The notes beneath the pieces were generated by a model. The model did no database searches, was not told the DNA's origin, and worked only from the letters and a program-made list of their open reading frames with translations. The translations under genes were made by a program, and so were the position numbers. This document shows positions 7,194-20,024 of a stretch of 64,000 bases of DNA, piece after piece (within the stretch, counting starts at the first letter, position 1; the number at the start of each line of letters is the position of its first letter). Source of the stretch: Hyphomicrobiales bacterium (GTDB taxonomy: Bacteria; Pseudomonadota; Alphaproteobacteria; Rhizobiales; Rhizobiaceae); assembly GCA_900473185.1 (NCBI GenBank), contig UCKU01000008.1:1-64000 (forward strand). Reading direction: 5' to 3'.

Positions 7194-8255
7194 TCAGTCG
7201 CGGATGACGAGCAGGTCGGCAGCCATGAAGCGGAGCGTCACGGTTTCGCCAGCGGCTGGCGGGGTGACGCCGGGGCTGTTGAACATGTCGAAGGAGATGA
7301 CGTTGCCGCCGACATTCATGCGGGTGCGGATGACCGAACCCAGGAAGTGGGCGGAGACGACCTGACCGGTGAGGGCGGTGTCGCTCTGGGTGCCTTCGGC
7401 AAGCGAACCAGCTTCCGGGCGGAGTGCCAGCTGAACGGTGTCGCCAGCCTTGTAGGTCTGGACGGACTGCTTCAGCGTCACACCCTGATCGCCGATCTGG
7501 ATGCGGTTGCTATCCGGGTCGAGGACCTTGGCTTCGATGAGGTTCAGCGTGCCGACGAAGGAGGCGACGAAGCGCGTTGCCGGTGTGTTGTAGATCTCGA
7601 AGGGCGTGCCGATCTGGTCGGCCTTGCCGGCGTTCATGACGACGATGCGGTCGGAGATCGAGAGCGCTTCTTCCTGGTCGTGCGTGACGAAAACCGTGGT
7701 GATGCCGAGCGACTGTTGGATCTGGCGGATTTCCTCGCGCAGCGAAACGCGGATCTTGGCATCGAGCGCCGAGAGCGGCTCGTCGAGCAGCAGAACCTGC
7801 GGCTTGACGGCAAGGGCGCGGGCGAGTGCGACGCGTTGCTGCTGGCCGCCGGACATCTGGTAGGGGAAGCGATCTGCCAGATGATCGAGCTTGATGAGGC
7901 CGAGCATTTCCTTGACCCGGCTGTCGATCTCCGGCTTCGGAGCCCCCGCGACCTTCAGGCCGAAAGCGACGTTGTCGTGCACCGTCATATTCGGGAAAAG
8001 GGCGTAGGCCTGGAAGACCATGCCGATGTTGCGCTGGTTCGGTTTCAGCGCACTCTGGTCCTTGCCGTTGATCGTCAGCGTACCGCCGGTCGGCGTTTCG
8101 AAACCGGCGATCATGCGCAGAACAGTGGTCTTGCCGCAGCCCGATGGGCCGAGGAAGGAAACGAATTCCCCTTTCTCGATGTTCATGTTGAAGTTCTTGA
8201 CGACCTGCGTCTGGCCGAAGGATTTCTGAATGTTGGTCAGCGTAAGAAAGGACAT
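7194..8255 (-). CDS. ABC transporter ATP-binding protein, PotA/FbpC-like
   Basis: ATPase of 353 residues for the uptake system encoded upstream on the same strand. Walker A is GPSGCGKTT, the Q-loop MVFQAYALFPNM, the signature MSGGQQQRVALARAL, Walker B VLLLDEPLSALDA and the switch VTHDQEEAL. A C-terminal TOBE_2-type domain (residues about 270-350; LALRPEAGSL) is typical of polyamine, iron and phosphonate-type importers. The ATG at 8255 lies 12 bases after the stop of the permease gene. The operon order is binding protein, permease, permease, ATPase. Confidence 0.92.
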   Translation of the reverse strand: MSFLTLTNIQKSFGQTQVVKNFNMNIEKGEFVSFLGPSGCGKTTVLRMIAGFETPTGGTLTINGKDQSALKPNQRNIGMVFQAYALFPNMTVHDNVAFGLKVAGAPKPEIDSRVKEMLGLIKLDHLADRFPYQMSGGQQQRVALARALAVKPQVLLLDEPLSALDAKIRVSLREEIRQIQQSLGITTVFVTHDQEEALSISDRIVVMNAGKADQIGTPFEIYNTPATRFVASFVGTLNLIEAKVLDPDSNRIQIGDQGVTLKQSVQTYKAGDTVQLALRPEAGSLAEGTQSDTALTGQVVSAHFLGSVIRTRMNVGGNVISFDMFNSPGVTPPAAGETVTLRFMAADLLVIRD

Positions 8256-8267
8256 GAGCCAAATACC

Positions 8268-9056
8268 TTATGCTTTAGCCGGGCGGGCTTTGCCAAAGCG
8301 GGAAACGAGGTTGAGCAGGCCCATGCTGAGCCAGGTGATCGAAAATGCGATGACCGCGAGCGCGGAAGGCTCATAAGCCTTGTTGGCGCCGACGAGCTGG
8401 AGGTAGGGGCCAAAGGCCGGACGGTTGAGCAGTGCGGCGAATGTGAATTCGCCCATGACAATTGCGAGCGTGATGAAGGCGCCCGAGAGCACGCCGCTCA
8501 TGACATTCGGGAAAATGCACTTGAACATGATGGTCGTCCAGCGAGCGCCGAGGCTTTCGGCGGCCTCCGTCAGCGTGCGGACGTCGATGGCGCGCATGGC
8601 TGTATCGACGGCGCGGTACATGTAGGGCAGCGACAAGGTGATGTAAGAGAAAACCAGCAGGATGTTGGTGCCCGTCGACGAATTCGTCAGCGGCAGATAG
8701 GACGACGAATTGTACATCCTGAGGTAGCCGAAAACGATGACAATCGCCGGTATGACGAGCGGTAGCAGCGTGATGAATTCGACGACCGGACGCATCTGCG
8801 GTAGGCGCAGCCGCACCCAGTAGGCTGTCGGTACGACGAGCAGCATGCCGAAGATGATGGTCAGAAACGCCATTCCCATGGAGTAGCCGAAGGTCTCGCG
8901 GAACTGAGCGTCCGAGAAGACTGACTGATAGGCATCGAAGCTATAGGTGCCGCGGCGCATGCGCAGCGAAAATTCGATCGTGCCGATCAGCGGAATGATG
9001 AAATAGGACGCGCCGAGAATGATGGCGATCCAGGCTCCGAGACGTTGAGCTTTCAT
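8268..9056 (-). CDS. ABC transporter permease, PotC-like
   Basis: Inner-membrane permease of 262 residues starting MKAQRLGAWIAIILGASYF at 9056, where ATGA overlaps the stop of the preceding permease gene. About six spans are visible, and the EAA loop reads EAAESLGARWTTIMFKCIFP near residues 169-188. A longer frame continues upstream but belongs to sequence within the PotB-like gene. It pairs with that permease to form the membrane channel. Confidence 0.9.
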   Translation of the reverse strand: MKAQRLGAWIAIILGASYFIIPLIGTIEFSLRMRRGTYSFDAYQSVFSDAQFRETFGYSMGMAFLTIIFGMLLVVPTAYWVRLRLPQMRPVVEFITLLPLVIPAIVIVFGYLRMYNSSSYLPLTNSSTGTNILLVFSYITLSLPYMYRAVDTAMRAIDVRTLTEAAESLGARWTTIMFKCIFPNVMSGVLSGAFITLAIVMGEFTFAALLNRPAFGPYLQLVGANKAYEPSALAVIAFSITWLSMGLLNLVSRFGKARPAKA

Positions 9057-9946
9057 TTCTGCCACCGTTCGGCGCGCATGCGCAGCATGAGATAAAGGAC
9101 ATTGGATACGCCGGTTATGACGATCATGCCGAGCGCGATCGCGTAACCGAGGTTGGCATTGTGCAGGACGTCGCCGCGGATCTGCGCATAGAGCAGGATC
9201 GGCACGATGTTCAGTGAACTGCCGGTCAGCGCGAAGGCGGTGGCGATGGCGCCGAAAGCGTTGGCAAAGAGCAGCAGCGTGGTACCGAGCAGGCTCGGCC
9301 AGAGGATCGGCAGGGCAACCATCGTCCAATATTGACGGTTGGTAGCGCCAAGAATTTCAGAGGCTTCGCGCCATTCCTTCTTCATACCGTCCAACGCCGG
9401 CGTCAGGATCAGCACCATCAGCGGGATCTGGAAATACATGTAGGTGATCGTGAGGCCGAAGAACGAGAGGAGGTTGAAGCCGGTGCCGTAAAGGTTGAAG
9501 CCGAACCAGTCGCGCAGGAAGAGGGTCACAAGGCCGGTGCGGCCGAGTGTTGCGAGAAAGGCGAAGGCGAGCGGTACCCCGGCGAAATTCGAGGCGACGC
9601 CGGAGAAGGTCAGAAGCGTCGAGCGCACCGAGTTCGGCAGGCCGCCGAGCACGACGGCCCAGGCGAGGAAAAAACCGATCAGCGCGCCGCCGAGGGCGGA
9701 CGCCACCGAGACGCGAATACTGATCCAGTAAGCGCTCAAAATGGATGGCGTAAAGAGATCGCCGATATTCTTCAGCGTGAGTTCGCCCTCGGGCGTCAAG
9801 AACGCGCCCGCCACGAGATAAAGCGTGGGGATGATCAGGAACAGCAGTGAAAAAATAATGAAGGGTGCAATGCCCAGCCAGTCGATCACGCGGTCTTTGT
9901 TGATCAAGGGGGCGCTGCTTACCATAGGTGTTGAAACGGTACTCAT
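9053..9946 (-). CDS. ABC transporter permease, PotB-like
   Basis: Inner-membrane permease of 297 residues with a cytoplasmic N-terminus of about 28 residues and six predicted spans. The EAA loop is EASEILGATNRQYWTMVALP near residues 195-214. It overlaps the second permease gene by four bases and lies 70 bases after the binding-protein gene. It belongs to the polyamine/iron-type (PotBC, FbpB) import class. Confidence 0.9.
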   Translation of the reverse strand: MSTVSTPMVSSAPLINKDRVIDWLGIAPFIIFSLLFLIIPTLYLVAGAFLTPEGELTLKNIGDLFTPSILSAYWISIRVSVASALGGALIGFFLAWAVVLGGLPNSVRSTLLTFSGVASNFAGVPLAFAFLATLGRTGLVTLFLRDWFGFNLYGTGFNLLSFFGLTITYMYFQIPLMVLILTPALDGMKKEWREASEILGATNRQYWTMVALPILWPSLLGTTLLLFANAFGAIATAFALTGSSLNIVPILLYAQIRGDVLHNANLGYAIALGMIVITGVSNVLYLMLRMRAERWQK

Positions 9947-10016
9947 GGAAAGCTCATCCTGGGGCGTCGGAGTGAGAAAACCTCCCCGCCCTGAGGCGAG
10001 GAGGCAGGATCAGGTG

Positions 10017-11120
10017 TTACTTGACGCTGGCGCCGACGACGGAATCCCAGTTCTTGGTGATGGCTTCCTTGCCGGCAGCCTGCTCTTCGAGCGTCGGGAA
10101 GACAGCCTTTTCATAGGCTGCTGCCGGCGGCAGCTTGTCGAGCAGCTCCTTCGGGATCTTGTTGTTCTTGGCAAGATCGTTGAAGCGGATCGGGTGGCAA
10201 TAGCCCTTCAGCCAGCCGAGCTGACCTTCGTCGGAATAGAGATACTCCATCCAGAGCTTGGCGGCGTTCGGGTGCGGAGCGAAGGCGGAGATCGCCTGGA
10301 CGTAGACGCCGGCAACGACGCCCGTCTTCGGAACGATGACTTCGAACGGAGGGTTGCCCTTCAGGCTTTCACCCCAGGAAAGCGCGTTGTAGTCCCAGGC
10401 GACGATGATCGGCGTGGAGCCCTGCGCGAACGGTGCCGCCTTGCCGACGACAGGCACGAAGTTGCCGGCCTTGTTGAGCTCGGCGAAGAACTTCAGGCCT
10501 TCTTCGCCTGCCTTGGCGGCGTTACCGCCGGATGCGGAAAGACCAGCGGCATAGACGCCCTGGACAGCCTGGTTGGCGGTGCGCGGATCGCCTGCGAGAG
10601 CGACGCTGTTTGCGTAATCGCTCTTCTTCAGGTCGGACCAGTCGGCCGGCGATGTCTTGACGAGGTCCTTGTTCACGAGGAACGAGAGAACGCCGTAATA
10701 GTCGCCGTACCAGTAGCCTTCTGCATCCTTGGCGGAATCCGGGATCGAATCCCAGGTGGAGACCTTGTAAGGCTGAATCAGGCCGTCTTTCTTGGCGGAC
10801 GGGCCGAAGGAGAGACCGACGTCGATGACGTCAGGAGCCTGCGGGCCGGTGTTGCCCTTGTTGGCCTTGATAGCTTCGACTTCGTCGCCCGAACCGGCAT
10901 CCGGGTTCAGCTCGTTGACTTCGAGGCCATACTTCGCCTTGAAGCCGGCAATGACGTCACCATAGCCGCACCAGTCGTGTGGGAGAGCGATCGTCGTCAG
11001 CGTGCCTTCCTTCTTGGCGGCAGCGATAAGTTCAGCGCTCGGCTCAGCTGCTGCGATCGCAGTCGAAGCAACGATCATCGCAGTAGAAAGCGAGAGCAGT
11101 CGAGAAATGTTAGAGATCAC
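10017..11120 (-). CDS. ABC transporter substrate-binding protein, PotD/AfuA-like
   Basis: Periplasmic binding protein of 367 residues, translated from a GTG at 11120 with AAGGAGAACAACA upstream. The signal peptide is about residues 1-24 (AMIVASTAIAAA). The mature start AELIAAAKKEGTLTTIALP is typical of family 1 binding proteins for iron, thiamine, phosphonate or polyamine-like ligands. WYGDYYGVLSFLVNKD gives the usual hinge segment. The ligand is not deducible. The gene is first in a four-gene operon behind an RpiR regulator and near an amine-type catabolic cluster, so a nitrogen compound is a reasonable guess. Confidence 0.88.
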   Translation of the reverse strand: MISNISRLLSLSTAMIVASTAIAAAEPSAELIAAAKKEGTLTTIALPHDWCGYGDVIAGFKAKYGLEVNELNPDAGSGDEVEAIKANKGNTGPQAPDVIDVGLSFGPSAKKDGLIQPYKVSTWDSIPDSAKDAEGYWYGDYYGVLSFLVNKDLVKTSPADWSDLKKSDYANSVALAGDPRTANQAVQGVYAAGLSASGGNAAKAGEEGLKFFAELNKAGNFVPVVGKAAPFAQGSTPIIVAWDYNALSWGESLKGNPPFEVIVPKTGVVAGVYVQAISAFAPHPNAAKLWMEYLYSDEGQLGWLKGYCHPIRFNDLAKNNKIPKELLDKLPPAAAYEKAVFPTLEEQAAGKEAITKNWDSVVGASVK

Positions 11121-11309: not shown

Positions 11310-12182
11310 CTAACCCGGTTTGCGGAAAAGCCGTGTCTGTTCGAACAGGCCTTCCAGCGTTTTCATGCGCTCCTTCGTCTCGTCCCAGGTCGAGTTCTGC
11401 ACCGCCTCGATGAGCGCCTCGACGATGAAGAGTGTGACGACGGAGGAATCCCATGCCGATGGCGCCTCGATCTGCACGCGGAAGGCGTGCCGCGCCAGCT
11501 TTGCGGCGGGCGAAGCCCATTGGTCGGTGAAGACGATGATTTCGGCGTCGCGCTTGCGGGCGGCAGTGGCGAGGCTCACCATCTCCTGCTCGTAGCGGCG
11601 GATATCGAAGATGATGAGCAGATCGCCCGGGTTCATGTTGAGAACGTATTGCGGCCAGCTCGACGAATTCGACGACAGCAGCGCCGTGTTCGGGCGGATG
11701 ACCTGCATATGGGTAAAGAAGTACTCGGCCAGCGCGCCGGTGATGCGTCCGCCGACGAAGTATAGCGTGCGCTTGCGGTCCGAGAGCAGGGCGGCGACAT
11801 TGTCGAACGTTGCTGTATCGAGATCGGAGAGCGTTTGGCGCAGATTGCCCATGATGGCATCGGCGAAGCGGTTCAATATATGGGTGCCCGGCGCGTTCTG
11901 GGCCCAGCGGTCATGCTTGGCGATCGGGTTGGAGATCGTCGCCTCGACTTCCTGATGCAGATGCTGCTGGAAATCCGGATAGCCCTTGTAGCCGAGCTTC
12001 TGGACCATGCGCACGACCGTCGGCGTGGAGACGCCGGCATTTTCTGCAATGGTGGTGATGCTGCCGAGACCGGAGACGGGGTAGTTGTCGAGCAGGCTTT
12101 CAGCCAACTGCTTCTCGGCGCGCGTGAGCACGCCAAGATGCGAATGAATGACGTCCGAAACGGTCTTTGCCGCGGCACTCAC
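11310..12182 (-). CDS. MurR/RpiR family transcriptional regulator
   Basis: Regulator of 290 residues with an N-terminal HTH_6 domain (about residues 10-85; AENAGVSTPTVVRMVQKLG is the recognition region) and a SIS domain (about 125-255; LYFVGGRITGALAEY and VIVFTDQWASP-like segment) that normally senses a phosphosugar or related ligand. The GTG at 12182 is preferred because GGGGAG lies nine bases upstream; an in-frame ATG at 12260 has no such support. It is transcribed toward the ABC operon and divergently from the amidohydrolase cluster, so it probably controls one or both. Confidence 0.88.
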   Translation of the reverse strand: MSAAAKTVSDVIHSHLGVLTRAEKQLAESLLDNYPVSGLGSITTIAENAGVSTPTVVRMVQKLGYKGYPDFQQHLHQEVEATISNPIAKHDRWAQNAPGTHILNRFADAIMGNLRQTLSDLDTATFDNVAALLSDRKRTLYFVGGRITGALAEYFFTHMQVIRPNTALLSSNSSSWPQYVLNMNPGDLLIIFDIRRYEQEMVSLATAARKRDAEIIVFTDQWASPAAKLARHAFRVQIEAPSAWDSSVVTLFIVEALIEAVQNSTWDETKERMKTLEGLFEQTRLFRKPG

Positions 12183-12344
12183 GTGATCTTGCTCCCCGGG
12201 ATGGTCTGACGCCACTTTCCCACTGAAAGTTAACAACGCTGTCACAATCCATGTCAACAAGTGTCATGAAAAGAAATTTTCAGAACGCGCTTGACACTGC
12301 CGTGAACCTGAAGAATTCTTTTCTTGTAAAGATTTTATTAAGCC
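12183..12344. promoter_or_regulatory. Divergent promoter region between the RpiR gene and the amidohydrolase cluster
   Basis: A 162-base divergent intergenic region, AT-richer than its surroundings. It holds the inverted repeat GAAAAGAAATTTTC (12268-12281) and several TGTCA/TGACA half-sites. The string TCATGAA (12265-12271 region) recurs upstream of the binding-protein gene near 11209-11215. These are candidate regulator sites only. Confidence 0.4.
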
Positions 12345-13130
12345 ATGGGAGACGTGCTTTTGGTGCTGGCTCAGCCCCGAATTCTCAGCGAAGCGGATGG
12401 CGTTTGTGTCGCAATCGAGCGCGTCAACGGCAGGAGCCCGGTCCTGCTCGTCTGCGAACATGCGTCGCGCACGCTTCCTGAACAGTTCGGCGATCTCGGC
12501 CTCTCTCAAGAGGCGCTTTTGAGCCATATCGCCTGGGATCCGGGCGCGCTTGCTGTTGCCCGCGGCATTTCTGCTGCTCTCGATGCGACATTGATCTACC
12601 AGCGCTTCTCGCGGCTGATCTATGACTGCAACCGGCCGCCGAGTTCTTCGGGCGCCATGCCGGAGGCGAGCGAGATTTATGCGATCCCTGGCAACAAGGA
12701 TTTGAGCGCGGAGGAGCGCAAGGCGCGTACCGAAGCGCTCTATGAGCCGTTCCACGCTGCCGTCAGCGGCCTGATCCGTGACCGGAAGGCGAGGGGACAG
12801 GATAGCGTCATCGTGACCATCCACAGCTTCACGCCGGTCTATAATGGCAAGTCGCGTGCAGTCGAGCTCGGCATCCTCCATGACGAGGACAGCCGTCTTG
12901 CCGACCGCATGCTGCACTTAGCGGCCGAGGCGCCGCTCTACCGTACCGAACGCAACGAACCCTATGGTCCTGAGGACGGCGTGACGCATACGCTGATCCT
13001 GCACGGCATTTCCAATGGGCTTCGCAATGTCATGATCGAGGTCCGCAATGACCTCATCAGTGAAGATACCGGCCAAGGGGTCGTGGCCGACTATCTCACG
13101 AGGCTTCTCCAGCAAAGTCTGGATGCCTGA
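12345..13130 (+). CDS. N-formylglutamate amidohydrolase family protein (possible gamma-glutamyl amide hydrolase)
   Basis: Predicted zinc amidohydrolase of 261 residues. Family motifs include LLVCEHASRTLP near residue 34, DPGALAVARG, FSRLIYDCNRP and VTIHSFTPVY. HutG-type enzymes split N-formylglutamate in histidine degradation, but no hut gene is nearby. Instead it heads a cluster with an amine/amino-acid permease, a glutamine-synthetase-like ligase and two dehydrogenases. A role in releasing glutamate from a gamma-glutamyl product is therefore plausible (inference). The ATG at 12345 has no good ribosome binding site; a GTG at 12363 with GGGAG upstream is an alternative. Confidence 0.82.
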   Translation: MGDVLLVLAQPRILSEADGVCVAIERVNGRSPVLLVCEHASRTLPEQFGDLGLSQEALLSHIAWDPGALAVARGISAALDATLIYQRFSRLIYDCNRPPSSSGAMPEASEIYAIPGNKDLSAEERKARTEALYEPFHAAVSGLIRDRKARGQDSVIVTIHSFTPVYNGKSRAVELGILHDEDSRLADRMLHLAAEAPLYRTERNEPYGPEDGVTHTLILHGISNGLRNVMIEVRNDLISEDTGQGVVADYLTRLLQQSLDA

Positions 13131-13251
13131 ATAAAACATAAGACCCCGGGGAGCAGTTTAACTGCGAACAGCCCGCAAGGCGAAAAGCCACGGGCACTTT
13201 TGGCACTAGATCGGCCGCAATTCCGCGGACGATTGTCAACAGGGGGAAGTC

Positions 13252-14799
13252 ATGTCGGACTATTCCGAAAGTGATAAGAAGCAGGATATGAGCATCCTGC
13301 ATTCCATGGGCTATGCCCAGGAACTCGAACGACGGATGAGCTCGTTCTCGAACTTTGCCGTTTCCTTCTCGATCATCTGCATTCTGTCGGGCGGTATCAA
13401 TTCGCTCGCGCAGGCAACCGCAGGTGCAGGCGGTGCCGCCATCGGCATCGGCTGGCCGGTCGGCTGCTTCGTTTCGCTCGTCTTTGCCGTCGCCATGGCA
13501 CAGATCAGCTCCGCTTACCCGACTGCGGGTGGCCTCTATCACTGGGGCTCGATCCTCGGTAACCGCTTCACCGGCTGGCTGACCGCCTGGTTCAACCTGC
13601 TTGGTCTCGTCACTGTTCTCGGCGCCATCAACGTCGGCACCTATTATTTCTTCATGGGCGCCTTCGGCACGAGCTATCTCGGCCTGGCGGACACGACCAC
13701 GGTGCGCATCGTCTTCCTGGTGATCATCACCGGCGCGCAGGCGCTTGTGAACCATATGGGCATCGGGCTTACAGCAAAGCTCACGGATTTCTCGGGTTAC
13801 CTGATCTTTGCAACCGCGATCGCGCTCGCCGCCGTGTGCCTGCTGTCGGCTCCGTCCTATGAGTTCGGCCGTCTCTTCACCTTCGCCAACTATTCCGGCG
13901 CAGCAGGTGGCAACGTCTGGCCGGCGACCTCAGGTACCTGGGTGTTCCTGCTTGGTCTGCTGCTGCCGATCTACACGATCACCGGCTATGACGCTTCGGC
14001 CCATACATCGGAAGAAACCGTCAAGGCGGCCCATTCGGTGCCGCGCGGCATGGTTTCCTCTGTTCTCTGGTCGGCGCTCTTCGGCTACATCATGCTGTGC
14101 GCCTTCGTGCTCATGCTGCCGAACATGGACGATGCTGCAAAGCAGGGCTGGAACGTGTTCTTCTGGGCGATGGACACGCAGGTCAATTCGGTCGTGAAGG
14201 ACATTCTCTACTTCGCGATCCTCGTCAGCCAGTGGCTGTGCGGTCTTGCGACTGTTACCTCGGTCTCGCGCATGATCTTCGCCTTCTCGCGTGATGGCGG
14301 CCTGCCGGCCTCCAAGGCGCTGTCGAAGGTCAGCCCGAACTACCGCACGCCGGTTGCCGCAATCTGGACGGGCTCGATCCTCTCGGTGCTCTTCGTCTGG
14401 GGCTCGTCGCTCGTTTCAATCGGCGAGACGCCGGTTTACACGATCGTCGTATCCTGCACGGTCATCTTCCTGTTCTTCTCCTTCGCGATCCCGATCGCGC
14501 TCGGCCTCTTTGCCTGGGGCACAGCGAAGTGGGATAAGATGGGCCCGTGGAATCTCGGCGAAGGCATGTTCAAGCTCTTCGCGGTTCTCTCGATCCTCGC
14601 GATGATCCTGATCTTCATCCTCGGCATTCAGCCGCCGAACGGACCGGCGCTCTATGTCACGGTAGGCTTCCTGGTTCTGACCGGCATCGTCTGGTTCGGC
14701 TTCGAAAGCCGCCGCTTCAAGGGGCCGCCGATCGGCGACGAAGTGGCAAGGCGCCAGGCCGAAATCGCAGCGGCCGAGAAGGCTGTCGGCGAAAACTAA
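13252..14799 (+). CDS. APC superfamily amino acid/amine permease
   Basis: Inner-membrane transporter of 515 residues with about twelve hydrophobic spans. The N-terminal MGYAQELERRMSSFSNFAVS and the following FSIICILSGGINS are characteristic of the GABA/choline/amine branch of the APC family. GTYYFFMGAFG and the central GYDASAHTSEET motif also fit that branch. AGGGGGAAG just before the ATG at 13252 sets the start. It probably imports the amine or amino alcohol processed by the downstream ligase and dehydrogenases. The substrate is unknown. Confidence 0.88.
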   Translation: MSDYSESDKKQDMSILHSMGYAQELERRMSSFSNFAVSFSIICILSGGINSLAQATAGAGGAAIGIGWPVGCFVSLVFAVAMAQISSAYPTAGGLYHWGSILGNRFTGWLTAWFNLLGLVTVLGAINVGTYYFFMGAFGTSYLGLADTTTVRIVFLVIITGAQALVNHMGIGLTAKLTDFSGYLIFATAIALAAVCLLSAPSYEFGRLFTFANYSGAAGGNVWPATSGTWVFLLGLLLPIYTITGYDASAHTSEETVKAAHSVPRGMVSSVLWSALFGYIMLCAFVLMLPNMDDAAKQGWNVFFWAMDTQVNSVVKDILYFAILVSQWLCGLATVTSVSRMIFAFSRDGGLPASKALSKVSPNYRTPVAAIWTGSILSVLFVWGSSLVSIGETPVYTIVVSCTVIFLFFSFAIPIALGLFAWGTAKWDKMGPWNLGEGMFKLFAVLSILAMILIFILGIQPPNGPALYVTVGFLVLTGIVWFGFESRRFKGPPIGDEVARRQAEIAAAEKAVGEN

Positions 14800-14825
14800 G
14801 AACTGAGGCTTCCCTCTCACATGGC

Positions 14826-14846
14826 GGGGCCGCGTCACGCGGCCCC
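14826..14846 (+). other. GC-rich stem-loop downstream of the permease gene
   Basis: Perfect nine-base stem GGGGCCGCG/CGCGGCCCC with a TCA loop, 26 bases after the permease stop. It lacks a T-run, so it is more likely an mRNA-stabilising or attenuating hairpin than a full terminator; the next gene is probably still co-transcribed. Confidence 0.5.
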
Positions 14847-14945
14847 ATCACGGTTCAACGAAAAGGCATCGGGCGGGTTGATCCCGGCGGTCGCATGCCG
14901 TTTCGTTGTCCCGATTTCCCGGTTTCAATTTCAGGCGGATGAATC

Positions 14946-16310
14946 ATGAGCAGCTATACTCTCGACGATCTCAGACAGGACGTTGCCGACGGGCGCATCG
15001 ATACGGTGCTGGCCTGCCAGGTGGATATGCAGGGGCGCCTGATGGGCAAGCGTTTCCAGGCGGAATTTTTCCTCGAAAGCGCCTGGAAGGAAACGCACAG
15101 CTGCAACTACCTGCAGGCGACCGACATGGAGATGGAAACCGTCTCCGGCTACAAGGCGACGAGCTGGGAGAAGGGTTACGGCGACTATACGATGAAGCCG
15201 GACCTTTCAACGCTGCGGGTCATCCCTTGGCTCGAAGGAACAGTCCTCGTTCTCTGCGACGTGCTGGATCATCATACACATGAGGAAGTGGCCCATTCGC
15301 CGCGTGCGATCCTGAAGAAGCAGGTGAAGCGGCTCGAAGCGATGGGCATGAAGGCCTACATGGCCTCCGAGCTCGAATTCTTCCTGTTCGACCAGAGCTA
15401 CGAGGCGGCGCAGGCTTCCGGTTATCGCAACTTGAAGCTCGCCAGCGCCTATAACGAAGACTACCACATCTTCCAGACCACCAAGGAAGAAGAGGTGATG
15501 CGGGCGATCCGCAAAGGCCTGCAGGGAGCCGGCATTCCGGTCGAAAATTCCAAGGGTGAGGCATCCGCCGGCCAGGAAGAAATCAATGTGCGTTATGCCG
15601 ATGCGCTCACCATGGCCGACCGGCATGCGATCATCAAGAACGGCTGCAAGGAGATCGCCTGGTCGAAGGGCAAGGCAATCACCTTCCTTGCCAAGTGGCA
15701 CTACAATGCCGCCGGCAGTTCCTCGCATATCCATCAGTCGCTCTGGAGTCTTGAAGAAAAGCCGCTCTTCTTCGACCATACCGGCCATCACGGCATGACA
15801 CCGCTGATGCAGAACTATATTGCCGGTCTGCTCAGCCACGCGAGTGAGATCACCTATTTCCTGGCGCCTTATATCAACTCCTACAAGCGCTTCATGGCCG
15901 GCACCTTCGCGCCGACCAAGGCCGTCTGGAGCAAGGACAACCGCACGGCAGGCTACCGCCTTTGCGGTGAGGAAACCAAGGGGATCCGTATCGAATGCCG
16001 CGTCGGCGGCTCCGATCTCAATCCCTACCTTGCCTTCGCGGCCCTGCTTGCGGCCGGCATAGACGGCATCGAAAAGAAGCTGGAACTGGAAGCGCCCTAT
16101 GTGGGCGATGCCTATTTCGGCAAAGACATTCGCGAGATCCCGCGCACATTGCGGGCTGCGACCAAGGCGATGACGGAATCGGAGATGCTGCGCGCAGCCT
16201 TCGGCGACGAGGTCATCGACCACTATACCCGCGCTGCTGAATGGGAGCAGGAAGAATACGACCGCCGCATCACGGATTGGGAAGTGGCGCGCGGCTTCGA
16301 GAGAGCTTAA
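14946..16310 (+). CDS. Glutamine synthetase-like gamma-glutamyl-amine ligase
   Basis: Glutamine synthetase family enzyme of 454 residues. It has the catalytic C-terminal domain with ELEFFLFD, GQEEINVRYADAL, the ATP-binding KAITFLAKWHYNAAGSSSH segment and RIECRVGGSDLNPYLAF. The conserved adenylylation tyrosine region of GlnA is not recognisable, and the N-terminal beta-grasp part is divergent (QVDMQGRLMGKRF). Relatives such as PuuA, IpuC and the Streptomyces GlnA4 join glutamate to amines instead of ammonia. Its neighbours (amine-type permease upstream, aldehyde and alcohol dehydrogenases downstream) support a gamma-glutamylating role over nitrogen assimilation. The true amine is not readable. 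Confidence 0.85.
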   Translation: MSSYTLDDLRQDVADGRIDTVLACQVDMQGRLMGKRFQAEFFLESAWKETHSCNYLQATDMEMETVSGYKATSWEKGYGDYTMKPDLSTLRVIPWLEGTVLVLCDVLDHHTHEEVAHSPRAILKKQVKRLEAMGMKAYMASELEFFLFDQSYEAAQASGYRNLKLASAYNEDYHIFQTTKEEEVMRAIRKGLQGAGIPVENSKGEASAGQEEINVRYADALTMADRHAIIKNGCKEIAWSKGKAITFLAKWHYNAAGSSSHIHQSLWSLEEKPLFFDHTGHHGMTPLMQNYIAGLLSHASEITYFLAPYINSYKRFMAGTFAPTKAVWSKDNRTAGYRLCGEETKGIRIECRVGGSDLNPYLAFAALLAAGIDGIEKKLELEAPYVGDAYFGKDIREIPRTLRAATKAMTESEMLRAAFGDEVIDHYTRAAEWEQEEYDRRITDWEVARGFERA

Positions 16311-16410
16311 GAACATATCCGAAGCGGAAGGCCGCCCGACTGGATTCCCCCTGCGGAGGATAAGTCGCGGCGTCTTTCTCTGCGGCTCAGAAGAAAACAG
16401 GATTTAGATC

Positions 16411-17796
16411 ATGACAATGATCCAATGCATTTCGCCGATTGACGGCTCTGTTTATGCGGAGCGTCCGGCGCTTTCCCTTGAAGCGGCAAAGGAAGCCGTG
16501 GCGCGTGCGCGCAAGGCGCAGAAGGCCTGGGCCAAGCGCCCGCTTGAAGAGCGCGTTCAACTGGTGCTGAAGGGCGTTGCCCGTCTTAACGAGATGTCCG
16601 ATGTCGTCGTACCCGAGCTTGCCTGGCAGATGGGCCGGCCGATCAAGTATGGCGGCGAATATCGCGGCTTCAACGAGCGCTCCAATTATGTCGCCTCGAT
16701 CGCGGCCGATGCTCTTGCGCCGCTCGTCGTCGAAGAGAGCGACAAGTTCGAGCGCCGCATTGAACGCGAAGCGCATGGCGTCGTCTTCGTCGTCGCCCCC
16801 TGGAATTATCCCTATATGACGGCGATCAACACGATCGCTCCGGCGCTGATGGCCGGCAATACCGTCGTGCTCAAGCATGCCTCGCAGACGCTGCTCGTCG
16901 GTGAGCGGCTGGTGCAAGCCTTCGTCGAGGCCGGTGTTCCCGAGGATGTGTTCCAGAACGTCTTCCTCGATCATGAGACGACTTCGGCGTTGATTGCCGC
17001 CGGCAGCTTCAACTTCGTCAATTTCACCGGCTCCGTCGAAGGCGGTCGCTCGATGGAACGCGCTGCGGCCGGTACCTTTACCGGTCTCGGTCTCGAGCTC
17101 GGCGGCAAGGATCCGGGCTATGTGATGGAAGATGCCGATCTCGACGCTGCCGTCGATACGCTGATGGATGGCGCGACCTATAATTCCGGCCAGTGCTGCT
17201 GCGGCATCGAACGCATCTATGTGCATGAATCGCTCTATGACGCCTTCGTCGAAAAGTCGGTCGCCTGGGTTTCGAACTACAAGCTCGGCAATCCGCTCGA
17301 TCCCGAGACATCGCTCGGCCCGATGGCGCACAAGCGCTTTGCCAAGGTGGTGCGCGAGCAGATCGCCGATGCCGTTGCCAGGGGCGCCAAGGCGCTCGTC
17401 GATCCCAAACTTTTCCCGGCCGATGACGGCGGCGCCTATCTTGCCCCGCAGATCCTCGTCAATGTCGATCACTCCATGGCCTTCATGCGCGAAGAGACCT
17501 TCGGCCCGGCCGTCGGCATCATGAAGGTCAAGAATGACGATGAAGCATTGGCGCTGATGAATGACAGCCAATACGGGCTGACGGCTTCGCTCTGGACCAA
17601 GGATGCCGAGCGGGCAGGGCGGCTCGGCCGCGAAATCGAAACCGGCACCGTCTTCATGAACCGCGCCGATTATCTCGATCCGGCCCTGTGCTGGACCGGC
17701 GTCAAGGAAACCGGCCGCGGCGGCTCGCTGTCGATCATCGGCTTCCACAATCTGACGCGCCCGAAATCCTACCATCTCAAGAAGGTCACAGCATGA
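16411..17796 (+). CDS. NAD(P)-dependent aldehyde dehydrogenase
   Basis: Aldehyde dehydrogenase superfamily enzyme of 461 residues. APWNYPYM, the Rossmann FTGSVEGGR, the general base in LELGGKDPG and the nucleophile region GQCCCGIER (three consecutive cysteines) are all present. It is slightly short because the N-terminus lacks an extended arm. It lies 100 bases after the ligase gene, and its stop overlaps the alcohol dehydrogenase start (ATGA at 17793-17796). In the proposed pathway it oxidises a gamma-glutamyl aminoaldehyde to the acid. Confidence 0.9.
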   Translation: MTMIQCISPIDGSVYAERPALSLEAAKEAVARARKAQKAWAKRPLEERVQLVLKGVARLNEMSDVVVPELAWQMGRPIKYGGEYRGFNERSNYVASIAADALAPLVVEESDKFERRIEREAHGVVFVVAPWNYPYMTAINTIAPALMAGNTVVLKHASQTLLVGERLVQAFVEAGVPEDVFQNVFLDHETTSALIAAGSFNFVNFTGSVEGGRSMERAAAGTFTGLGLELGGKDPGYVMEDADLDAAVDTLMDGATYNSGQCCCGIERIYVHESLYDAFVEKSVAWVSNYKLGNPLDPETSLGPMAHKRFAKVVREQIADAVARGAKALVDPKLFPADDGGAYLAPQILVNVDHSMAFMREETFGPAVGIMKVKNDDEALALMNDSQYGLTASLWTKDAERAGRLGREIETGTVFMNRADYLDPALCWTGVKETGRGGSLSIIGFHNLTRPKSYHLKKVTA

Positions 17797-18947
17797 GCAG
17801 CGCCAACATCACAGCCAACTGGAGCTATCCGACAGCCGTCAAGCTCGGCCGCGGCCGCATCAAGGAACTGGCCGACGCCTGCAAGAGCCTCGGCATGAAG
17901 AAGCCGCTGCTCGTCACCGACCGCGGCCTCGCCTCGATGGCGATCACCAAGAACGCGCTCGACATTCTCGAAGATGCAGGCCTCGGCCGGGCGATCTTTG
18001 CCGATGTCGATCCGAACCCGAACGAGAAGAACCTCGAAGCCGGCATCAAGGCCTTCCGCGACGGCGGCCATGACGGGGTTGTTGCCTTTGGCGGCGGTTC
18101 GGGCCTCGATCTCGGCAAGTGCGTCGCCTTCATGGTCGGCCAGACGCGCCCCGTCTGGGATTTCGAGGATATCGGCGACTGGTGGACGCGCGCGAACGTC
18201 GAAGGCATTGCACCGATCGTTGCCGTGCCGACGACGGCCGGCACCGGCTCGGAAGTCGGTCGGGCCAGCGTCATCACCAATTCTGTGACGCATGTGAAGA
18301 AGATCATCTTCCATCCGAAGTTTCTGCCGGGTGTCGTCATCGCCGATCCGGAACTGACGGTCGGCATGCCGAAGATCATCACGGCAGGCACCGGCATGGA
18401 TGCCTTCGCCCATTGCCTGGAAGCCTATTCCTCGCCCTTCTACCATCCGATGTCGGCCGGCATCGCGCTGGAGGGTATGCGGCTCGTCAAGGAATTCCTG
18501 CCGCGTGCCTATAAGGAAGGCACGGATCTGGAAGCCCGCGCCAACATGATGTCGGCAGCCGCCATGGGTGCTGTCGCCTTCCAGAAGGGGCTTGGCGCCA
18601 TCCACGCGCTCTCGCATCCGATCGGTGCCGTCTACAACACGCATCACGGCATGACCAATGCCGTCGTCATGCCGGCTGTCCTGCGCTTCAACCGCTCTGC
18701 CATCGAGGAGAAGATTGCGCGTGCCGCTGCCTATCTCGGAATTTCGGGCGGTTTCGACGGTTTCTATGATTACGTGCTGAAGCTGCGCTCCGAACTCAAC
18801 GTCCCTGACAATCTGACGGCGATGGGAATCACCACGGAGCGGATCGACGAACTGGCGGCGATGGCGATCGAAGACCCGAGCGCCGGCGGTAATCCGGTTG
18901 CATTGACGCTCGAAAATACCAAGACACTGTTTGCTGATTGCTTCTGA
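17793..18947 (+). CDS. Iron-containing alcohol dehydrogenase
   Basis: Group III, metal-dependent alcohol dehydrogenase of 384 residues. The cofactor motif GGGSGLDLGK and PTTAGTGSEV are visible. The metal ligands are an Asp and three His in ITAGTGMDAFAHCLEAY, ALSHPIGA and NTHHGMTNAV. The ATG at 17793 overlaps the aldehyde dehydrogenase stop, so the pair is translated together, as expected for consecutive oxidation of an alcohol to an acid. Upstream in-frame codons belong to the aldehyde dehydrogenase region. The gene ends at a strong terminator. Confidence 0.92.
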   Translation: MSSANITANWSYPTAVKLGRGRIKELADACKSLGMKKPLLVTDRGLASMAITKNALDILEDAGLGRAIFADVDPNPNEKNLEAGIKAFRDGGHDGVVAFGGGSGLDLGKCVAFMVGQTRPVWDFEDIGDWWTRANVEGIAPIVAVPTTAGTGSEVGRASVITNSVTHVKKIIFHPKFLPGVVIADPELTVGMPKIITAGTGMDAFAHCLEAYSSPFYHPMSAGIALEGMRLVKEFLPRAYKEGTDLEARANMMSAAAMGAVAFQKGLGAIHALSHPIGAVYNTHHGMTNAVVMPAVLRFNRSAIEEKIARAAAYLGISGGFDGFYDYVLKLRSELNVPDNLTAMGITTERIDELAAMAIEDPSAGGNPVALTLENTKTLFADCF

Positions 18948-18973: not shown

Positions 18974-19007
18974 GCCCGGAAAACCTTGGTTTTCCGGGCT
19001 TTTTTTG
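18974..19007 (+). terminator. Rho-independent terminator of the amine/amino-alcohol cluster
   Basis: Near-perfect 26-base hairpin GCCCGGAAAACC/GGTTTTCCGGGC followed directly by seven T, 27 bases after the alcohol dehydrogenase stop. Confidence 0.92.
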
Positions 19008-19087: not shown

Positions 19088-19184
19088 ACGATTGGCAAGG
19101 ATGGGTTAACCGCACGATGCTCCGACAGTGCGATTAATAACGAGCGATGCCGGCTCGCGCCATTTCCCTTCGAGGACTAAGAAT

Positions 19185-19895
19185 ATGCCAGTCATCACAT
19201 TCGCAAATACCAAGGGCGGCGCCGGCAAGACCACAGCCGTATTGCTGCTTGCTACCGAACTTGCCCGTCAGGGCTACCGCGTCACCATCCTCGATGCCGA
19301 TCCGCAGCACTGGATTTCGCGCTGGCACGAAATCTCCGGCCATGTGGCAAACATCAGCGTCATCGATTTCGTAACGACTGCCTCGCTGCCGCAGCACATC
19401 AGCGAAAACAAGCAGAATACCGATTACTTCATCATCGACCTGCCGGGCGCGCGTAATCCGCTGCTGGCAACGGCCGTCGGTCTCTCCGACCATGTGCTGA
19501 TCCCGATCCAGGGCTGTGCCATGGATGCCCGCGGCGGCGCTCAGGTTCTCGAGCTCCTGCAGTATCTTGAGGAGAAGGCAGGCATCAAGATCGGCCATTC
19601 GGTCGTGCTGACCCGCGTCAACTCCATGGTTACCACCCGCGCGCTGCAGCTCGTCAAGGCGCTGCTGAACGAGCGCCACGTGCCGGTTCTCGATACGGCG
19701 ATCATCGAACGTTCGGCCTTCCGCGACATCTTCGATTGCGGCGGCACGCTGCATACGATGGACCCGATGCGCGTCAGCAACCTCGACAAAGCCCGTGAAA
19801 ACGCCCTCTGTTTCGCAGAAGAGATCATTCGCAAGGTGCCGGGCCGCCTTCCGGTTGCCATTCGCCTGGCAAACGCCATGGGCCGTGCTGCCTGA
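19185..19895 (+). CDS. Orphan ParA/MinD-family ATPase
   Basis: Deviant Walker ATPase of 236 residues starting MPVITFANTKGGAGKTTAVL, with the ParA-type P-loop KGGAGKTT at residues 10-17, DADPQHW (A' motif) and FIIDLPGAR (Walker B). The length and single-domain layout resemble VirC1-like and small ParA proteins rather than chromosomal ParA or plasmid RepA, and no parB gene is adjacent. The ATG at 19185 has CGAGGA upstream; in-frame codons before it are in the promoter. A perfect CtrA-type box upstream suggests cell-cycle-timed expression, and so a role in polar positioning of a cargo. The cargo is unknown. Confidence 0.82.
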   Translation: MPVITFANTKGGAGKTTAVLLLATELARQGYRVTILDADPQHWISRWHEISGHVANISVIDFVTTASLPQHISENKQNTDYFIIDLPGARNPLLATAVGLSDHVLIPIQGCAMDARGGAQVLELLQYLEEKAGIKIGHSVVLTRVNSMVTTRALQLVKALLNERHVPVLDTAIIERSAFRDIFDCGGTLHTMDPMRVSNLDKARENALCFAEEIIRKVPGRLPVAIRLANAMGRAA

Positions 19896-19950: not shown

Positions 19951-20024
19951 CATTTGAAATTACATTTGCTCACTGGTGTAATGGTTGTCAGGTTGTAAAA
20001 ATCCCTTCACGCGCGAAGCAACGC

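Follow-up and report, generated by a model that had tools for sequence, protein, structure and literature searches.

A probable gamma-glutamylation operon for ethanolamine with an exchangeable transporter in a Rhizobiaceae genome

Known gamma-glutamylation systems and the rhizobial locus

An operon of Phaeobacter sp. MED193 with the order RpiR-GGAH-EtoVWX-ETAGA-GAADDH-GETADH was presented by Westermann et al. (2023) (PMC10132767). The parts named in that paper are a gamma-glutamylglycine amidohydrolase, a tripartite ATP-independent periplasmic (TRAP) transporter, an ethanolamine gamma-glutamylase, a gamma-glutamylacetylaldehydeamide dehydrogenase, a gamma-glutamylethanolamide dehydrogenase and RpiR; five operon proteins were raised on phosphorylethanolamine, and the ethanolamine pathway in C. 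salexigens and A. tumefaciens C58 is credited there to Vetting et al. 2015 (PMC10132767). The same chemistry is proposed by Krysenko et al. (2019) for the GlnA4 pathway of Streptomyces coelicolor, with the last step given to the formylglutamate amidohydrolase family (PMC6529630). Here we compare these systems with a locus in the first 64,000 nucleotides of contig UCKU01000008.1 from a Hyphomicrobiales bacterium of the Rhizobiaceae, a stretch called the window below. Five genes on its plus strand and a divergent RpiR-type regulator form a cluster that we read, with a probability a little above nine in ten, as an operon for cobalamin-independent ethanolamine catabolism by gamma-glutamylation.

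By the gene list of the figure legend, the MED193 operon shares with this locus the four enzymes, the RpiR regulator, the amidohydrolase in first place and a transporter between amidohydrolase and ligase. It differs in that slot, which holds a TRAP system there and an APC-superfamily permease here (EtoVWX is not present at this locus), and here an ATP-binding cassette (ABC) transporter adjoins the regulator. The likeness to the C58 and C. salexigens pathway lies in Atu2144 of C58 (PDB 2odf), a homologue of the window's amidohydrolase, and in the closeness of the ligase to PDB 5dm3; seven loci with Agrobacterium in their titles differ from the window in carrying an EutP-like permease in the slot instead of the window-type APC permease. 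As far as the descriptions can be compared, the GlnA4 pathway names a short-chain dehydrogenase where the window has an iron-containing alcohol dehydrogenase (PMC6529630). The Puu route of E. coli (PuuA-PuuB-PuuC-PuuD) likewise protects an amine with a glutamate that is later recovered, but it has a polyamine substrate, an oxidase step and a differently annotated hydrolase, and its ligase is 27% identical to the window's. The cobalamin-dependent lyase EutBC acts on the same substrate, and some eutBC loci have a window-type permease in common with this cluster, whereas its chemistry and product are different.

The original prediction had taken Streptomyces GlnA4 as its precedent. The proposed chemistry carries over, although Phaeobacter, Chromohalobacter and A. 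tumefaciens C58 provide nearer precedents. Because operons of this kind are already known in those three, the pathway itself is not new; what is modestly new is the assignment of the permease, together with the finding that transporters have repeatedly replaced one another at one position of the operon. No rhizobial cluster of this kind was found in the titles and abstract openings of the ethanolamine literature with rhizobial or glutamylation themes, among the matches listed, and the permease assignment may still have been published. The reading gathers genes labelled "glutamine synthetase family protein", "N-formylglutamate amidohydrolase" and "amino acid permease" in public records into one pathway, which would use the nitrogen and carbon of membrane lipids without vitamin B12. 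For plant-associated bacteria it bears on ethanolamine from phospholipid turnover as a food source.

The enzymes and the proposed route

The five same-strand genes and the strong terminator of the original prediction are all present at the place it gave, and their Pfam families agree with it. In order along the plus strand, they encode a protein of the N-formylglutamate amidohydrolase family (12363-13130; Pfam FGase, 152.9 bits), the APC-superfamily permease (13252-14799; AA_permease_2), a glutamine-synthetase-like ligase (14946-16310; Gln-synt_C), an aldehyde dehydrogenase (16411-17796; Aldedh, 402.5 bits) and the iron-containing alcohol dehydrogenase (17793-18947; Fe-ADH and ADH_Fe_C). The reading frames of the two dehydrogenases share 4 bases. 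The intrinsic terminator on the plus strand (18974-18999) has an 11-pair stem, a 4-base loop and the run TTTTTTT. For the amidohydrolase, the longest open reading frame starts at ATG 12345, and comparison with relatives makes GTG 12363, behind GGGAG, the likelier start.

In the proposed route, the permease would import ethanolamine, which the ligase (probable glutamate-ethanolamine ligase, ETAGA) would couple to glutamate at the expense of ATP to yield gamma-glutamylethanolamide. The iron-containing alcohol dehydrogenase (probable gamma-glutamylethanolamide dehydrogenase, GETADH) would turn the alcohol of this compound into the aldehyde, and the aldehyde dehydrogenase (probable gamma-glutamylacetaldehyde-amide dehydrogenase, GAADDH) would oxidise the aldehyde to gamma-glutamylglycine. 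The amidohydrolase (probable gamma-glutamylglycine amidohydrolase) would finally free glycine and restore glutamate, which could thus be regarded as a recycled protecting group, since this last enzyme would regenerate it. The activities and the order of steps are inferred, as is the substrate of the permease, and the idea that the cluster holds one enzyme for each step of a gamma-glutamylation route is its best reading.

The gene set was followed through its relatives by scanning one genome per species and keeping the best 80 of at least 588 confirmed stretches, a set that leans to close relatives because the best-scoring stretches were kept. With 16 further loci, two of which duplicate loci already in the set, it grew to 96. 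The regulator, the amidohydrolase, the ligase and both dehydrogenases were all found in 69 of the 80 loci (79 of the 96), several of the misses being short contigs, and the neighbourhood is therefore not a chance one. Positions with known roles in the two dehydrogenase families are at least 98% conserved, namely C263 in NSGQCCC and E229 in ELGGKD of the aldehyde dehydrogenase and D203, H207, H271 and H285 of the alcohol dehydrogenase. In 150 sampled genomes of the window's order, ligases of this type occur in 71 (E up to 1e-150).

The nearest solved structures to the ligase are PDB 11zs (E 2.5e-198) and 5dm3 (E 2.1e-189), the latter presumably a C. salexigens protein. Its identity is only 25-28% to E. 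coli PuuA (27%) and to the four other glutamine-synthetase-type proteins of its own genome. In the alignment the catalytic Glu, His and Arg positions of GlnA are kept, and the flap Glu, which in GlnA takes part in ammonia binding, is replaced by Phe321. This Phe is found in eight of nine aligned relatives, the ninth (Thermomicrobium) having Trp, and is at least 98% conserved across 97 ligase rows; PuuA has Tyr at the position, and a GlnA-like protein of the same genome (L035) has Glu. On the NCBIfam GlnA model TIGR00653 the ligase scores 266.5 bits (cut-off 429.15), and its match to the GSIII model is likewise below cut-off. The model for gamma-glutamylputrescine synthetase, NF045547, gives 196.5 bits against a cut-off of 650, a score that decides nothing, since E. 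coli PuuA itself reaches merely 198.7. The comparison with known ligases covered PuuA and GlnA and found the protein distinct from both: identity with GlnA is ruled out by the below-cut-off score and the Phe in place of the flap Glu, and identity with PuuA is unlikely at 27%. The original prediction had also described the ligase as lacking the GlnA adenylylation region. This holds for the surrounding loop, which is shorter and not conserved, but a Tyr (Y390) does align at the position, with what we take to be the adenylylation site of GlnA.

The amidohydrolase has a single solved relative, 2odf (Atu2144 of A. tumefaciens; E 9.9e-94). Since the protein at the same cluster position in an A. pusense locus (L100) matches 2odf with E 2.8e-155, Atu2144 is very probably the C58 counterpart of the window's enzyme and very probably belongs to this cluster type. 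Against NCBIfam, the HutG model TIGR02017 included, the amidohydrolase gave no match at 1e-5. Its own genome encodes four proteins of the FGase family, one of which (in L032) is the genome's HutG with 391.5 bits on TIGR02017 (cut-off 278.75), encoded directly after the histidine ammonia-lyase HutH (599.1 bits on TIGR01225, cut-off 539.15). The original prediction had named in advance a placement with HutG of histidine degradation as a ground for rejecting it; judged by family score, rather than by a tree, and by the true HutG lying elsewhere beside HutH, this identity is ruled out.

These results also bear on the plainest alternative, an ordinary ammonia-assimilating glutamine synthetase that happens to lie by unrelated genes, with an amidohydrolase serving histidine degradation. 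The Pfam matches, and the below-cut-off matches to the GlnA and GSIII models, are what it would predict. The replaced flap Glu speaks against it, as do the GlnA-like protein with that Glu and the HutG encoded elsewhere in the genome, and the conservation of the gene set across families; we consider it highly improbable. Gamma-glutamylation of a polyamine of the putrescine type, as in E. coli Puu, would share the logic of ligase, aldehyde dehydrogenase and hydrolase, and the neighbouring ABC transporter has below-cut-off matches to spermidine/putrescine systems. However, besides the low identity of the ligase to PuuA, Pfam assigns none of the five gene products to the amine oxidases or aminotransferases and an alcohol dehydrogenase is present instead, so that an amino alcohol is favoured, as had been argued at the outset. 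What looks like a diamine-type counterpart, with a 51%-identical ligase and an aminotransferase but no iron-containing alcohol dehydrogenase, lies on a Rhizobium plasmid, and we give the polyamine version hardly any credence. That plasmid is conjugative, and its cluster (L162, 2992-12320) also holds an aldehyde dehydrogenase, an FGase-family protein and a protein annotated as N,N-dimethylformamidase-like; it is perhaps a variant for a different amine. Another 51%-identical ligase, in Thermomicrobium roseum (L163, 6974-10725), is followed by an annotated glucose 1-dehydrogenase and an annotated ethanolamine permease.

Ethanolamine gamma-glutamylation had further been put forward as an alternative to the cobalamin-dependent lyase, and this agrees with the genome, which is 99.73% complete and in which EutB (PF06751) was not found by a search that does find it in an E. 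coli control. On the product side, a version of the cluster without a transporter is followed by bhcBCD or bhcABCD, annotated as glyoxylate catabolism, on plasmids of Paracoccus pantotrophus and two Aminobacter strains, and a further locus (L116) has bhcB and bhcC within its stretch. In none of these four bhc-linked loci does a transporter fill the slot, and all of them may go back to a common origin. Such neighbours would fit glycine as the product of the pathway, provided that glycine is converted to glyoxylate. By PLSDB typing, the three plasmid loci with these beta-hydroxyaspartate-cycle genes (L160, L168 and L173) lie on one mobilizable Paracoccus plasmid and two conjugative Aminobacter plasmids.

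The transporter slot and its permease

Of the 80 loci, 40 have a window-type permease in the slot between amidohydrolase and ligase, 20 a TRAP system and 13 an EutP-like permease. In the remaining 7 no transporter was recognised; L089 among them carries a broken window-type permease, and in four of them neither amidohydrolase nor regulator was found upstream of the ligase. Since the transporter type varies among members, the presence of a TRAP system does not define the kind of operon. The binding protein of one TRAP locus (L042) matches PDB 4uab with E 2.8e-181. This structure is Csal_0678 crystallised with ethanolamine according to PMC12410723; binding of ethanolamine by Csal_0678 is also stated in PMC4646407, and PMC5812351 remarks that ethanolamine is an unexpected ligand for a TRAP system. 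Of the NCBIfam models, the one for ethanolamine permeases comes nearest to the A. pusense slot permease, whose 360 bits are slightly below the cut-off of 381.75. For the window permease the best NCBIfam model is TIGR00907 (201.4 bits, cut-off 598.3), and the ethanolamine permease model TIGR00908 (EutP/eat; cut-off 381.75) is not among the families listed for it at 0.001.

Exchange in the slot was followed on a quickly built tree of 96 ligases, from which the distant L050 was omitted; 87 of the rows carried a slot type, and the nine with no recognised transporter were uncounted. This tree needs a minimum of 12 changes of type, against 31-40 in 30 shuffles, which suggests that it is partly inherited and yet often exchanged; the figure of 12 is approximate because the quick tree has many weakly supported forks. 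With labels restricted to the Rhizobiaceae loci that bear the adjacent ABC transporter, the minimum is nine. Among the 63 labelled rows of that group, no column of the ligase, the aldehyde dehydrogenase, the alcohol dehydrogenase or the amidohydrolase separates the window type perfectly from the other two, a comparison that imperfect tendencies would escape.

Outside this operon type, permease homologues of 46-60% identity were compared at seven loci, made up of all four matches that 190 genomes of the class gave, the own genome not counted, and three of five plasmid records. On a Deinococcus plasmid, a 49%-identical homologue lies directly upstream of eutB and eutC, and at a second locus (L165) a homologue lies directly downstream of eutBC. 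At L164 and L166 the homologue stands beside a distant glutamine-synthetase-like ligase (32-33% identical), an aldehyde dehydrogenase and an iron-containing alcohol dehydrogenase, and at L167 beside such a ligase (31%) and an aldehyde dehydrogenase; in these three it looks like the ligase has been replaced by a distant glutamine synthetase paralogue. Of the seven loci, two therefore bear directly on ethanolamine, three suggest a cluster of the gamma-glutamylation kind and the other two indicate neither. Since distant homologues sit beside eutBC in two unrelated genomes, the window permease is probably an ethanolamine permease not annotated as such. We think it likely, further, that it founds an unrecognised group of ethanolamine permeases nearest TIGR00907, serving both the gamma-glutamylation and the cobalamin lyase routes, and that the operon is a plug-in design, in which any of three kinds of ethanolamine importer can occupy the one slot. 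The ligase tree has 12 or more such exchanges, to which no change in the enzymes corresponds, nor, within the Rhizobiaceae, any in the operator pair described below. The exchange would give a likely substrate to a permease group annotated merely as amino acid permease.

Several observations weigh against the assignment to ethanolamine. None of the five cluster proteins reaches an NCBIfam family cut-off. The flap Phe is not exclusive to this ligase type, as the three other glutamine-synthetase-like proteins of the genome have Phe (in a protein 25% identical to the ligase), Trp and Ser at the position. On two betaproteobacterial plasmids (L158 and L159) there are no eut or gamma-glutamylation genes near the permease homologue; the genes around it encode, among others, short-chain dehydrogenases, FAD-binding oxidases, an aminotransferase and a serine hydroxymethyltransferase. 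Ligases 58-61% identical to the window's occur in rhizobitoxine-like clusters, in which serinol would be the likelier substrate. Finally, the C. salexigens pathway "was predicted in an in silico approach", in the wording of PMC6529630.

The rhizobitoxine-like clusters bring in the possibility that the main substrate of this chemistry is a different amino alcohol, such as 1-amino-2-propanol, 3-amino-1-propanol or serinol. Serinol is used in rhizobitoxine synthesis, as PMC3222319 states, and the two dehydrogenases could presumably take related amides. On the other side, the TRAP binding protein exchanged into this slot closely resembles the one crystallised with ethanolamine, the window-type permease is paired with eutBC elsewhere, and the bhc genes next to related clusters agree with a two-carbon product; a different amino alcohol therefore seems unlikely, and ethanolamine remains the substrate that we prefer. 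The two ligases in question, of Paraburkholderia sabiae and Robbsia andropogonis (L170, 6989-8347, and L172, 5998-7350), sit in clusters read as rhizobitoxine-type with a protein of the gamma-glutamyl-GABA-hydrolase family. Perhaps serinol is gamma-glutamylated there as a protecting step and later released; in PMC5789663, rtxACD are cited as essential and sufficient, without a gamma-glutamylation step.

Control region and neighbouring genes

The divergent gene on the minus strand (11310-12182) encodes a MurR/RpiR-type protein with HTH_6 and SIS domains by Pfam, the probable regulator of the operon. Its listed open reading frame extends to 12260, and the GTG at 12182-12180 is the likelier start; the span 12183-18947 of the original prediction adjoins this codon and so takes in the control region. 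In 71 of the 80 loci the RpiR gene is divergent and less than 600 bases from the amidohydrolase. Two near-palindromes lie between the two genes, operator 1 (TGAAAAGAAATTTTCA, 12267-12282), a probable RpiR site, and operator 2 (TGAAGAATTCTTTTCT, 12309-12324), which begins 42 bases after operator 1. Between them stands a possible -35 element on the plus strand, TTGACA at 12291-12296, which a generic promoter scan did not flag; a -10 element at the usual distance from it would overlap operator 2. RpiR probably represses the operon through two operators flanking the -35-like element.

Operators were counted in the 82 of the 96 loci with a suitable intergenic region, the other 14 remaining uncounted. 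The strict pair is present in 62 of the 82, with a spacing of 42 in 54, 43 in 7 and 44 in 1, a count that describes conservation and is not an independent test because the pattern was defined on the same sequences. It occurs in 60 of 63 ABC-bearing Rhizobiaceae loci and in 2 of 19 others; by slot type the figures are 43/44 for window-type, 11/13 for EutP-like, 6/23 for TRAP and 2/2 for unassigned loci. A weight matrix found no separate RpiR site before the ABC binding protein gene. Solely the sites at 12267-12324 stand out, the next best being at 19994, and their high scores are expected since the matrix was built from orthologues of that region.

Next to the RpiR gene on the same minus strand lies the ABC transporter (7194-11120), with an ATPase (7194-8255), two permeases (8268-9089 and 9053-9946) and a binding protein (10017-11120). 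In 59 of the 80 loci (39 window-type, 13 EutP-like, 6 TRAP and 1 unassigned) all four genes stand next to the regulator with their order unchanged, and the record titles of these loci name Rhizobiaceae genera or Rhizobiales isolates. Twenty loci with homologues of the binding protein were compared, one of which (L150), from another genus of the window's family, has an ethanolamine cluster, with the ABC genes directly downstream of the alcohol dehydrogenase gene on the same strand. In the other 19 the transporter lies apart from the ethanolamine cluster, and grouping of open reading frames found no conserved gene beyond the transporter in them. A scan of 17 flanking proteins (one from L150) gave mixed families, TrkH alone appearing twice, both times from one genus.

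Among the 150 genomes of the order, the ligase is present in 22 of 29 with the ABC transporter and in 49 of 121 without it (Fisher p 0.0008, kinship ignored). Where a genome has both, ligase and transporter are physically linked in all five cases within the window's family and in none of the 17 outside it. The ABC transporter is thus likely to be linked to the ethanolamine regulon in the Rhizobiaceae. Its binding protein falls far short of the cut-offs set for the 2-aminoethylphosphonate and sulfate models, and its ATPase is near that of the putative 2-aminoethylphosphonate transporter model PhnT2 (427.5, cut-off 457.7), so an amine-bearing phosphorus compound is a possible substrate. On the other side of the operon, just past the terminator, lies a gene for a ParA/VirC1-like ATPase (19128-19895), with a homologue on the same strand in 49 of the 59 ABC-bearing loci of the 80-locus set.

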